Shown one piece after another: positions 38,594 through 41,219 of a DNA stretch of 51,207 bases (positions within the stretch are counted from its first letter, which is position 1; every line of letters begins with the position of its first letter). Source of the stretch: an uncultured Oscillospiraceae bacterium (lineage in GTDB: Bacteria > Bacillota > Clostridia > Oscillospirales > Ruminococcaceae); assembly GCA_949285935.1 (NCBI GenBank), contig CASEAH010000110.1, positions 1-51,207 on the forward strand, read 5' to 3'. The position numbers were made by a program, and so were the translations under genes. The notes below the pieces were generated by a model, which saw nothing but the letters and a program-made list of their open reading frames with translations, was not told where the DNA came from and did not search any database.

Positions 38594-39562
38594 CTAATCA
38601 TGAGATTCAGGTTCCGGTTTATCCAACTGGGAAGGAAAAGATGACAGAGCGTTTTCCAAAACCGGATTTTCCTCCAAAGCCGGTGCTTGATAGGAGAAAT
38701 GATTTGCGTCCAAAGTTTCGGTCCGGCCGGGAGCCCCCGGGGATGTTGATTCCCCCCGGGGGCTTTGAAATGTCACAGGCAGCTTACGGGGTCTGCGGAG
38801 CCGGGGACCCGGATCCGGCATTTCCGGCATATCCTTCCAGAAGCGTTTGGGACACATGGTTTGCTGGCACCTGGGATTGAGTCGTCCGGAAATGGCAATG
38901 GCGGTATGGAAGGTCTGCCAAAGGCTGCGGACATACTCCTCTTCCACTCCGGGTCGTGGGGGAGAGAAATCCTCCATGGGCATGAGTCCGCACTGACCAT
39001 CCCGCCGGTGGACCAAAGCCATATGGTGCACATCGTCGTAAACAAGAAAATCCTCCTGGGAATACCGGTTGATGAAATGGTCTGCTACAAGGGGGAGAAT
39101 TTGGTTTTTGGGAGAGATAACGGCGGTGAGAAATCCCGCGTTTTCTGAAAAGCGGAGAAATCCCATGAAATGGTGGGCCTCAAACCACAGGCTTTTGATG
39201 GCGCGGGTGAGAGTCATGACCGTTTCATCCCCCAGCTGCTGGGTAACTTTACCGCCCTGCTGCAAGCCCAGCCGGACAAAGCGCAGGATCAGCAGTTCCT
39301 TGTGGGGGAGACAGGTGAGAAAAGCCCGGACCACCATTTCCCGGGCCAGGGGGGAAATCTTGTGATCCAGAGCATCCCAGACGCGCCGGGCCCGGTCAGG
39401 CTGAGTGACAACGGTATGCAGGGCCCAGAGAGACTGCTGCTCCCGATCCGCAGGCAAAATGTCCAGAGGTTCCTCATTGCGCAGAAAGCTTTCAAAAATA
39501 CAGCAAAGAAGCCCATCCAGAGAGCCGTCATATTGGTAGATCAAATTTGTCCGCTCAGGCAT
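38594..39562 (-). CDS. DUF4130/TIGR03915 protein, partner of the radical SAM DNA-repair protein
   Basis: A 322-residue protein. Residues 1-248 match the DUF4130 (TIGR03915) family, encoded beside TIGR03916 radical SAM proteins or fused to UdgX-type uracil-DNA-binding proteins. Conserved features are YDGSLDGLLCCIFESF at the start, RFVRLGLQQGG, LWFEAHHFMGFLRF and the terminal block RCQQTMCPKRFWKDMPE with two cysteines. Residues 249-322 are an extra Pro/Ser/Glu-rich tail, likely disordered, replacing the UdgX domain found in some relatives. It overlaps the radical SAM stop by 22 nt, so translation is coupled. The biochemical function is unknown. Confidence 0.87.
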   Translation of the reverse strand: MPERTNLIYQYDGSLDGLLCCIFESFLRNEEPLDILPADREQQSLWALHTVVTQPDRARRVWDALDHKISPLAREMVVRAFLTCLPHKELLILRFVRLGLQQGGKVTQQLGDETVMTLTRAIKSLWFEAHHFMGFLRFSENAGFLTAVISPKNQILPLVADHFINRYSQEDFLVYDDVHHMALVHRRDGQCGLMPMEDFSPPRPGVEEEYVRSLWQTFHTAIAISGRLNPRCQQTMCPKRFWKDMPEMPDPGPRLRRPRKLPVTFQSPRGESTSPGAPGRTETLDANHFSYQAPALEENPVLENALSSFPSQLDKPEPESHD

Positions 39563-40848
39563 TTGCGTAAATCCTCCGGAGTGGGATCGTTGGGTGGGAA
39601 CAGAGAAAGCTGTTGTGCCTCGTCCGGCTGGGGAAGGGAAGGCCTTTCAGCGGCAACCAGTCCCTGCAGGATGGTATTTTCGGAGATCCGCAGCCCCTCC
39701 AGCATTCTGCCGCCGCAGGTGATAAAGTATTGGGCACGTTTGAGGACCACGCCCATCCGTTTCAGGGCAGCCCAGTCCAGCCGGCCGACCTTCCGGGCCG
39801 CAGTGATCCGATTGGCGGAAGTGACCCCGATCCCCGGCACCCGCAGCAGCGTTTCATAGGAGGCGCGGTTGATCTCCACAGGAAAAAGTTCCAGGTGGTT
39901 CAGCGCCCAGTTGCATTTGGGGTCCACCAGCGGGTTAAGACTGGGATGCGCCTCATCCAAAAGTTCGGAAGCGGAAAACCCATAGAATCTCAGCAGCCAG
40001 TCGGCCTGGTAGAGACGATGCTCCCGCAGGAGGGGAGGGCGGGTGTCGACGGCGGGGAGAAGAGGATTCTCCACCATGGGGATGTAAGCGGAAAAAAAGA
40101 CCCGGCGCAGGCCATACCGTTGGTACAGAGCCTCGGACAGATGCAGGATCTGAAAATCATTCTCAGCAGAAGCTCCTATGATCATTTGCGTGCTTTGCCC
40201 GGCGGGAGCAAATCGTGGAGCGGAGCGATAGCGCGCCAGATCGTGGGTATTTTCAGTAATGCGGGAGCGAATCTGCTTCATCGGTTCCAAAATATCGGAG
40301 CGGCTTTTGTCCGGGGCCAGCAGACCCAGGCTTTGCCGGGAAGGCAGCTCGATATTGACGCTCATTCGGTCGGCCAGCAGCCCAAGCCGGTCAATCAGAC
40401 GGCTGTCGGCTCCCGGGATGGCTTTGACATGGATATAACCCTGGAAGTGGTACTCCCTGCGCAGAATGGTCAGAACCTCCGCCATCTGTTCACAGGTATA
40501 GTCGGGATTTTTAAGGATGCCCGAGCTGAGGAACAGACCCTCGATATAGTTCCGCCGGTAGAAAGCCATGGTCAGATCGGACAGTTCCCGGGGGGTGAAG
40601 GCAGCCCGGGGGACGTCATGAGAACGGGCGTTCACGCAGTATTTGCAGTCGTAGGCACAGTAGTTGGTCATCAGTACCTTAAGCAGGGAGACACACCGAC
40701 CATCGGCGGAAAAGCTGTGACAAATTCCCGCCGAAACGGCATTTCCCACCCCATCGCCCCGGTTACGGCGGTTTACGCCGCTGGAGGTGCAGGCTACATC
40801 ATATTTGGCGGCGTCGGTAAGGATGCGCAGTTTTTCCATCAGGTCCAC
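39541..40848 (-). CDS. Putative DNA modification/repair radical SAM protein (TIGR03916)
   Basis: A 435-residue radical SAM protein. The [4Fe-4S] motif is C64-x3-C68-x2-C71 in NYCAYDCKYC. The N-terminal LRILTDAAKYDVACTSSG and a C-terminal helix-hairpin-helix (VPGIGVTSANRITAA) are typical of TIGR03916. Near the C-terminus (412-417) is QQLSLF, a consensus beta-clamp-binding motif, followed by an 18-residue tail. The best start is a GTG 7 nt after GGAGG (giving MDLMEKLRIL); an ATG three codons later is possible. Two LexA-like sites lie in the promoter. The family is predicted to act on DNA, but substrate and product are unknown. Confidence 0.9.
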   Translation of the reverse strand: MDLMEKLRILTDAAKYDVACTSSGVNRRNRGDGVGNAVSAGICHSFSADGRCVSLLKVLMTNYCAYDCKYCVNARSHDVPRAAFTPRELSDLTMAFYRRNYIEGLFLSSGILKNPDYTCEQMAEVLTILRREYHFQGYIHVKAIPGADSRLIDRLGLLADRMSVNIELPSRQSLGLLAPDKSRSDILEPMKQIRSRITENTHDLARYRSAPRFAPAGQSTQMIIGASAENDFQILHLSEALYQRYGLRRVFFSAYIPMVENPLLPAVDTRPPLLREHRLYQADWLLRFYGFSASELLDEAHPSLNPLVDPKCNWALNHLELFPVEINRASYETLLRVPGIGVTSANRITAARKVGRLDWAALKRMGVVLKRAQYFITCGGRMLEGLRISENTILQGLVAAERPSLPQPDEAQQLSLFPPNDPTPEDLRKCLSGQI

Positions 40849-40864
40849 AGCGGCCCCTCCCGTA

Positions 40865-40878
40865 AAAACATTTGTTCT
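40865..40878 (-). promoter_or_regulatory. Second LexA-like site, over the start of transcription
   Basis: Read on the minus strand, AGAACAAATGTTTT matches 12 of 14 positions of the Firmicute LexA consensus CGAACRNRYGTTYC. It covers about +3 to +16 of the predicted transcript. Its centre is 33 bp, close to three helical turns, from the first site. Confidence 0.6.
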
Positions 40879-40887
40879 GTATGCTTT

Positions 40888-40917
40888 ATTATAGTTTCGA
40901 ACAAACGTTTTTGTCAA
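40888..40917 (-). promoter_or_regulatory. Promoter of the radical SAM/DUF4130 operon
   Basis: On the minus strand TTGACA, an 18-bp spacer, then TATAAT. Transcription would start near 40881, giving a leader of about 33 nt before the GTG start. The spacer contains the LexA box. Confidence 0.85.
40898..40911 (+). promoter_or_regulatory. LexA (SOS) box inside the promoter spacer
   Basis: CGAACAAACGTTTT matches 13 of 14 positions of the Bacillus-type LexA consensus CGAACRNRYGTTYC. It lies entirely between the -35 and -10 hexamers, where bound LexA would block RNA polymerase. SOS induction of the cassette is therefore predicted. Confidence 0.8.
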
Positions 40918-40922
40918 GAGAC

Positions 40923-40956
40923 AAAAAATTCCATCGGCGGAAAATGGCCGATGGAA
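40923..40956 (-). terminator. Rho-independent terminator upstream of the radical SAM promoter
   Basis: On the minus strand TTCCATCGGC pairs exactly with GCCGATGGAA around an 8-nt loop, followed by TTTTTTG. It would end transcripts from the aldehyde dehydrogenase gene and insulate the LexA-controlled promoter just downstream. The 263 bp between it and that gene hold no convincing gene. Confidence 0.85.
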
Positions 40957-41219
40957 TCAGTGAACTTGAAAGATGCTGAAAACACAGCAAAGCCTCATCC
41001 TCTGCCCGATTGCATAGTGTTTGGGGGTCATAAAAGCTTGGTTTAACAGCTGTTTTATAGAATTTAATGTGTAAAGCCGATTGACATTACACTTTACAAA
41101 ATGGCTGAATAAAAGGATTTTTGGCATACGCCATAGAAAGAGAGAAAAATTCTTTCGGAGAGGAAATACATCCTTCTTTCCGGATGCCGGACTGGAGGAA
41201 GTACTGCACCCTCGTGCAG

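Follow-up and report, generated by a model that had tools for sequence, protein, structure and literature searches.

A LexA-box-preceded radical SAM–DUF4130 gene pair with a conserved clamp-type peptide: a candidate SOS-regulated DNA-repair operon

The best known DNA-repairing enzyme of the radical S-adenosylmethionine (SAM) type is spore photoproduct lyase (TIGR04070), which acts on DNA. The present analysis concerns two adjacent genes, one for a radical SAM protein of family TIGR03916 (rSAM_link_UDG), which we take to be COG4277, and one for a DUF4130 protein of family TIGR03915, in an uncultured Oscillospiraceae bacterium (GenBank assembly GCA_949285935.1, contig CASEAH010000110.1, positions 1 to 51,207; this whole stretch of 51,207 nucleotides is called the window below). 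We propose that the pair is probably an SOS-regulated two-gene DNA-repair operon, consisting of a radical SAM enzyme predicted to dock on the beta clamp and a DUF4130 protein that would act with it.

Related genes appear in several published studies. In Clostridium acetobutylicum the genes CAC3343-CAC3344 are a predicted LexA target, in a study of one species with footprinting and microarray data (PMC3828012), and a COG1573-COG4277 operon is LexA-regulated in Bacteroidetes and has also been reported for Verrucomicrobia and Alphaproteobacteria (PMC8565304). A 2013 survey predicted DUF4130 to be mutagenesis-related and linked it with SplB-like radical SAM proteins and uracil-DNA glycosylases (UDGs; PMC3765255). 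The physiological role of UdgX has been termed largely unknown (PMC10359453). A protein carrying this family name is up in desiccated Acinetobacter (PMC13130816), another is among the genes up in Fusobacterium co-culture (value 1.585; PMC9848294), and a ‘putative DNA modification/repair FeS-containing radical SAM protein’ is listed in a table of repair genes (PMC8307549). LexA-controlled radical SAM proteins have furthermore been reported in Streptomyces (PMC9380542) and in Gram-positive and Balneolaeota regulons (PMC7739468), where the family is not identifiable from the available text. No reaction for the TIGR03916 family was found in the literature searched.

LexA boxes at the promoter of the gene pair

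Read along the minus strand from 40958 to 38594, the locus presents a terminator, a promoter, LexA box 1, box 2, a Shine-Dalgarno sequence, the radical SAM gene and the DUF4130 gene, with the following features:

40927 to 40958, minus: intrinsic terminator (12-bp stem and T run) just upstream of the promoter, which it would insulate against upstream transcription
40912 to 40917, minus: -35 hexamer TTGACA, including the TTG earlier mistaken for a start codon
40898 to 40911, minus: LexA box 1, AAAACGTTTGTTCG, 13/14, within the -35/-10 spacer
40888 to 40893, minus: -10 hexamer TATAAT, by sequence
40865 to 40878, minus: LexA box 2, AGAACAAATGTTTT, 12/14, at or just past the predicted transcription start
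40854 to 40861, minus: strong Shine-Dalgarno sequence GGGAGGGG, ending 5 nt upstream of GTG 40848
39541 to 40848, minus: radical SAM gene, TIGR03916 by profile score, 435 amino acids from GTG 40848 (start placed by the Shine-Dalgarno sequence and orthologue starts)
40693 to 40791, minus: C20, C43-H44 and C52 (C-X22-CH-X7-C, numbered from GTG 40848), near-invariant in the alignment
40636 to 40659, minus: radical SAM CX3CX2C (C64, C68, C71), by motif and alignment
39790 to 39879, minus: helix-hairpin-helix DNA-binding motif (HHH_3 profile, E 1e-5, just below the cut-off)
39598 to 39612, minus: QLSLF, predicted beta-clamp-binding peptide, by conservation in homologue tails
39541 to 39562, minus: 22-nt gene overlap with the DUF4130 start codon, probably coupling translation
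39577 to 39572, minus: Shine-Dalgarno sequence GGAGGA of the DUF4130 gene, by sequence
38594 to 39562, minus: DUF4130/TIGR03915 gene, 322 amino acids, by profile scores (conserved domain 38819-39538)

The promoter hexamers match their consensus at 12 of 12 positions and are separated by an 18-nt spacer. An earlier note, made from the sequence of the window, had described a terminator upstream of this promoter, a 13/14 LexA box in its spacer, a second 12/14 box 33 bp away, a radical SAM protein with a CxxxCxxC motif and a helix-hairpin-helix, and a 22-nt overlap of the two genes. All of this was recovered: the 12-bp stem lies at 40958-40927, the overlap at 39541-39562 and both protein motifs are present (HHH_3 slightly below its cut-off), and the two box scores, obtained with the LexA consensus CGAACRNRYGTTYG, hold on the better strand of each box, the other strands scoring 11/14 (box 1) and 10/14 (box 2). 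TTG 40917 was rejected as the start of the radical SAM gene because it sits within the -35 hexamer and the 23 residues that it would add at the N-terminus come from translating the promoter and LexA box. The likely start, judged from the sequence, is GTG 40848 or ATG 40839, and both are consistent with the conserved orthologue protein, which begins at about a [DE]KLxIL stretch.

Two sets of loci were compared. The first comprises 80 clostridial loci found with six peptide patterns, one of which is the translated LexA box and another of which lies in the C-terminal tail, so that it is not a clean test of either element. To be free of the box-derived search pattern, the second set was chosen by protein profile only: 91 phylum-wide loci from 398 genomes, of which 90 score above the TIGR03916 cut-off and one (G045) falls narrowly short of it. 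We scored a LexA core where at least 7 of the 8 positions of GAAC-N4-GTTC matched. Upstream of the radical SAM gene a core is found in 62 of the 79 anchored first-set loci, or 63 of 80 with the window added, and all 8 positions match in 39; L036, absent from the initial count, also has a full core, which makes 63/80 first-set loci without counting the window. In random 200-bp windows of these loci the core occurs in 5.1%. Phylum-wide it is present in 48 of 76 anchored loci and 13 of the 15 others, i.e. 61/91 (random windows, 9.2%), where L036 and these 15 were scored later, with looser anchors and without a random control. The earlier note's expectation that LexA sites would be enriched upstream of TIGR03916 orthologues is therefore borne out among the clostridial as well as the phylum-wide loci, against 5-9% of random windows. 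Spore photoproduct lyase genes of the same phylum have the core in 1 of 30 upstream regions, each counted back from the first Met in the open frame.

A pair of cores, each matching at 7/8 or better, was seen in 14 of 80 (window included) and 9 of 76 upstream regions, and 8 of the 14 pairs, again with the window, are spaced 29-33 bp apart (the count of two-box loci and of DUF4130 residues omits L008). The exact pattern GAACRNRYGTTY has 13 matches (11 distinct places) in the 2.44-Mb genome, no more than a reversed control (12), yet two of them fall in this one promoter; over the genome, chance would give roughly 0.002 such pairs lying within 50 bp. In the window's own genome recA, lexA and uvrB are likewise preceded by boxes of this type, that of uvrB standing just upstream of a uvrB-like frame (G000:C97:26277, L197) that was named by eye.

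Outside the phylum, all three alphaproteobacterial loci carry GAAC-N7-GAAC 33-122 bp upstream of the match, with about 0.01 expected per 300 bp, and LexA of Alphaproteobacteria reads the direct repeat GTTC-N7-GTTC (PMC8565304). Since clade-specific motifs stand at both clostridial and alphaproteobacterial loci, the box, where found, appears to have the form read by the clade's own LexA. As a hint only, among six genomes whose listed LexA match was poor or missing just one had a core of at least 7, versus 47 of 70 others (p 0.02, with a post hoc threshold and hand-typed counts). Taken together, the conserved clade-specific promoter boxes strongly support the predicted membership of the pair in the LexA/SOS regulon.

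Clamp-type peptide and conserved cysteines of the radical SAM protein

The radical SAM protein matches TIGR03916 with 670.1 bits (cut-off 343.5) over residues 26-440 and profile positions 1-415, and the family exceeds this cut-off in 91 of the 398 sampled genomes of the phylum, with homologues in three further phyla. CX3CX2C is present as C64, C68 and C71 in all 180 aligned proteins; the Pfam Radical_SAM score is 25.2, under the gathering cut-off of 29.5, and HHH_3 scores 26 bits, just under 27. The best match of the family profile to a solved chain is that of the helix-hairpin-helix stretch to a ComEA-related protein (E 0.004).

Beta-clamp-binding peptides are of the QL[SD]LF type and lie in flexible tails, and QLSLF stands near the C-terminal end of the window protein. 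The earlier note had suggested that a QLxLF-type peptide might be conserved there, and it is: a penta- or hexapeptide form occurs in 80/80 first-set proteins, in the window, in 74/77 phylum-wide proteins, in 14/14 members of a divergent subfamily and in 8/8 proteins from Bacteroidota, Pseudomonadota and Fusobacteriota, or 177 of 180. For the pentapeptide alone the figures are 80/80 and 71/77, against shuffled-tail means of 7.6/80 and 4.7/77 (13 loci without a tail anchor were left out of this count, and all 13 were scored in the combined one), and the six phylum-wide misses comprise three hexapeptides (QLPLDF, QLPLNF, QLQFSF) and three EPM[SD]LF. Tails comprised the final 120 residues in homologues and control open reading frames (ORFs) and the final 60 in spore photoproduct lyases and DinB. 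The penta/hexa pattern is present in 44 of 415 other long ORFs, which are open frames of at least 250 amino acids whose status as genes is unchecked. The strict form QL[SD]L[FW] is found in 50/80 and 20/77 homologues, in none of the 415 ORFs (last 60 residues) and in none of 30 spore photoproduct lyases, one of which has the broad pattern. DinB belongs to a family known to bind the clamp; 27 of 30 DinB loci from the same phylum could be scored, and 17 of the 27 tails have the broad and 3 the strict pattern. The Q of the peptide is invariant in 69 aligned proteins, most of whose tail is variable, and is kept in about 98% of all aligned proteins. These counts strongly support a predicted docking of the radical SAM protein on the beta clamp. 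We found no report of a clamp motif in the TIGR03916 family within the collection of literature searched, and as far as it shows the family-wide peptide is apparently new. A clamp motif was also considered for DUF4130 and rejected, at 6/81, 2/84 and 0/8, where all six are the same string inside the domain.

Four residues that precede the radical SAM cysteines, towards the N-terminus, are nearly as invariant as these and are retained across four phyla: C20 and C52 are present in 180/180 aligned proteins, whereas C43 is missing in one and H44 in two, all members of the divergent subfamily. Judging from this alignment they probably form a second iron–sulfur (Fe-S) cluster or metal site, which is apparently new as far as the literature searched shows. 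C312, by comparison, was rejected as a general further conserved cysteine, being present in 80/80 first-set loci but only 11/77 phylum-wide and 0/22 others.

The DUF4130 partner

The downstream protein matches TIGR03915 with 217.5 bits (cut-off 112.25) and PF13566 with 149.2 bits (cut-off 27). Among the 91 genomes with TIGR03916 over its cut-off, 90 have a TIGR03915 match (E at most 0.001), and in the exception (G041) the contig stops 54 bases past the radical SAM gene. Conversely, TIGR03915 matches occur in 94 of the 398 genomes, 78 of them over its own cut-off; of the four without a radical SAM match over the cut-off, G090, G125 and G153 have partial ones and G266 has only a DUF4130 paralogue. 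In 84 of the 91 fetched loci DUF4130 comes after the radical SAM gene and on its strand. In the seven others it lies elsewhere in four genomes of family f60 and in G286 (at a contig edge), is lost to the contig end in G041 and has no match in G045. The partnership of the radical SAM protein with DUF4130 is strongly supported by this distribution.

In family f60 (G050, G089, G303, G325; loci L121, L106, L125, L108) both genes are present but apart in the genome. Genus g105 (G103, G137, G266) has a further DUF4130 match, whose alignment covers only profile positions of about 1-195 to 1-211 and which stands on a separate contig from the radical SAM gene in G103 and G137 and is the sole copy found in G266.

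By our choice of start codons the overlap of the two genes is exactly 22 nt in 68 of the 80 clostridial loci, and 53 of the 54 tails of KCLTGQ type carry a Shine-Dalgarno-like stretch, from which it is probable that the overlap couples translation of DUF4130 to that of the radical SAM gene. Many members without the 22-nt overlap (L093, L096, L144, L147, L154-L160) end in TGE[LI], whose codons might supply a Shine-Dalgarno-like stretch along with a start-stop overlap, i.e. coupling of another form.

The near-universal residues of DUF4130 are R137, R166, R227, E247, W215, N229 and E128, a set more suggestive of contacts with phosphate or DNA than of a metal nuclease. The latter is not favoured because the most general residues are R137, R166, R227, E247 and W215, while D12 and D176 fail, occurring in 2 and 0 of 13 divergent-subfamily members. 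A DUF4130 profile search against solved structures gave a single match (E 0.35).

Three alphaproteobacterial loci (L183, L185, L188) encode DUF4130 as a fusion with a UdgX-type domain, a capturer of uracil or AP (abasic) sites, in which the motif GEQPG is accompanied by KRRLH in two and RRRLH (by eye) in the third. In the window protein DUF4130 was the only domain found, and among the fetched frames either motif was found only in these three loci. At L183, on an Azospirillum plasmid, a TnpB-family gene lies on the opposite strand between the radical SAM and UdgX-DUF4130 genes.

The window's DUF4130 frame runs past the domain in a 74-residue C-terminal extension that is not conserved (38594-38820, minus), inside which a G+C-rich inverted repeat was seen by eye near 38730-38772; given this repeat, the end of the frame may be intergenic sequence or the terminator of a convergent gene. 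Among the 12 largest neighbour clusters, viewed without a library run, no extra conserved neighbour was recognised, and the top two are minus-strand ORFs resembling shadow frames.

Interpretation and comparison with known systems

The operon, its boxes, the clamp-type peptide, the conservation of both and the gene pairing are features of the sequence itself, and a mechanism can be proposed that would unite them. LexA bound to the box in the promoter spacer and to the second box at the transcription start would keep the operon off, and RecA-driven cleavage of LexA would switch it on. The mRNA would yield the radical SAM enzyme, with its second Cys/His site and helix-hairpin-helix, and DUF4130 through coupled translation across the overlap. 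The peptide in the variable C-terminal tail would bring the enzyme to replicating DNA, where the helix-hairpin-helix would hold it, and radical chemistry would then target a damaged base or else an adduct recognised or held by DUF4130, which would be a near-obligate binding or processing partner. That the radical SAM enzyme repairs or removes a DNA lesion, and does not modify intact DNA, is a reasonable inference.

A bolder version is possible, although we hold it only tentatively: the protein may be the first replication-coupled radical SAM repair enzyme, SOS-induced and clamp-tethered, with a second Fe-S or metal site, acting with DUF4130 on a lesion at the fork. In bacteria with UdgX fusions it might resolve the covalent adduct of UdgX with an abasic (AP) site, and in Clostridia an equivalent uncaptured lesion. 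If this were so, the recruitment of the pair in Firmicutes and Alphaproteobacteria alike, through LexA motifs that differ, would mark a core and overlooked SOS function. The family may also give biological context for UdgX. The clamp-type peptide and the damage-control boxes turn a ‘putative DNA modification/repair’ protein into a replication-coupled repair hypothesis that is open to testing, for which the obvious mutants (in the clamp peptide, the second Cys site and CX3CX2C) and the partner are well defined.

Several observations weigh against a clamp-docked SOS repair operon. The homologues are kin, so the counts are not independent events. At the threshold used, 17 of the 80 first-set and 30 of the 91 phylum-wide loci have no box; none was found at the Acinetobacter and Fusobacterium loci and nothing convincing at three Bacteroidota loci. 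Clamp peptides are short, the broad pattern occurring in 11% of control tails and the pentapeptide form also turning up in the body of 19 out of 167 of these same radical SAM proteins, and three phylum-wide members carry EPMSLF or EPMDLF instead. Profile searches against solved structures gave only weak matches for the two proteins, chiefly to helix-hairpin-helix motifs and radical SAM cysteine stretches. Finally, SOS control taken alone would be compatible with mutagenesis or regulation too.

SOS induction and clamp docking are typical of Y-family polymerases, and the pair might accordingly be an accessory of translesion synthesis or mutagenesis that aids bypass, induced and docked like DinB, whose tails share the clamp-type motif as described above. 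DUF4130 has indeed been predicted as a ‘mutagenesis-related enzyme’ (PMC3765255). That the radical SAM motif is intact and that a second conserved Cys/His site is present argues rather for catalysis on a substrate, and in the 12 largest clusters of neighbours around the 80 first-set loci, with one example of each viewed and no library run, we recognised no polymerase or ImuB-type gene; we regard this explanation as unlikely.

Reversal of photodamage in the manner of spore photoproduct lyase is less convincing and in our view improbable. The same survey terms the DUF4130-associated radical SAM proteins SplB-like photolyases (PMC3765255), yet our own family profile, built from about one third of the homologues, fails to find any of 30 spore photoproduct lyases at E values up to 10, and those proteins have next to none of the clamp-type peptides and LexA boxes counted above. 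No TIGR04070 match is present in the genome to which the window belongs (89% complete) or among the NCBIfam matches of the protein, and the TIGR03916 family has in addition the helix-hairpin-helix and the second Cys/His site.

We give slightly less credence again to a system that makes a hypermodified DNA base. The NCBIfam name, ‘putative DNA modification/repair’, would allow it and radical SAM enzymes do make modified nucleosides, but SOS-type boxes occur in several clades, and there was no PADLOC or PHROG match, linked modification genes having been sought in the 12 neighbour clusters only. The lack of a PADLOC or PHROG match also led us to reject a defence system or phage family; in a phage collection ten records carry the gene (7 covering at least 80% of the query), eight of which are unannotated faecal contigs that may be bacterial DNA.

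It is highly improbable that the C-terminal conservation reflects nothing beyond the coding overlap with DUF4130: the last codons and the Shine-Dalgarno stretch are indeed constrained, as the recurrent 22-nt overlap indicates, but the peptide ends 17-21 codons ahead of the stop, outside the overlap, in 63 of 80 first-set loci and forms the very C-terminus of 14 proteins, 12 of them from outside that set. Its third codon positions vary (entropy 0.61 to 1.98 bits), and because synonymous positions vary selection appears to act on the peptide. This explanation is thus refuted for the peptide itself and holds for the last residues, where KCLTGQI was rejected as a functional motif since its conservation in the clostridial proteins is accounted for by the Shine-Dalgarno sequence and start codon of the overlapping gene.

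Returning to the candidate SOS repair operon, we can place it among the described systems. Spore photoproduct lyase is likewise of the radical SAM type but differs from the TIGR03916 family in having no profile similarity, no strict clamp peptide and a LexA box in 1 of 30, and by similarity the TIGR03916 protein does not appear to be one. UdgX-type motifs are found in the alphaproteobacterial DUF4130 fusions; the window protein lacks a UDG domain, and the available portion of the UdgX paper mentions no radical SAM link (PMC10359453). The COG1573-COG4277 operon has been described as a uracil-DNA-glycosylase excision-repair pair (PMC8565304), whereas the partner in the window has no UDG domain. 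CAC3343-CAC3344 has, like the window pair, a LexA site predicted upstream, the available text giving neither a clamp motif nor a function (PMC3828012). LexA control of this operon has therefore already been published for other bacteria (PMC3828012, PMC8565304), and the clamp-type peptide and the second Cys/His site are, so far as the literature searched shows, the new parts. The window pair matches TIGR03916 and TIGR03915 over their full length and far above the cut-offs, in adjacent genes, and as such represents the known pairing of these families, to which the present analysis adds the clamp-type peptide, the second Cys/His site and phylum-wide counts of LexA boxes.

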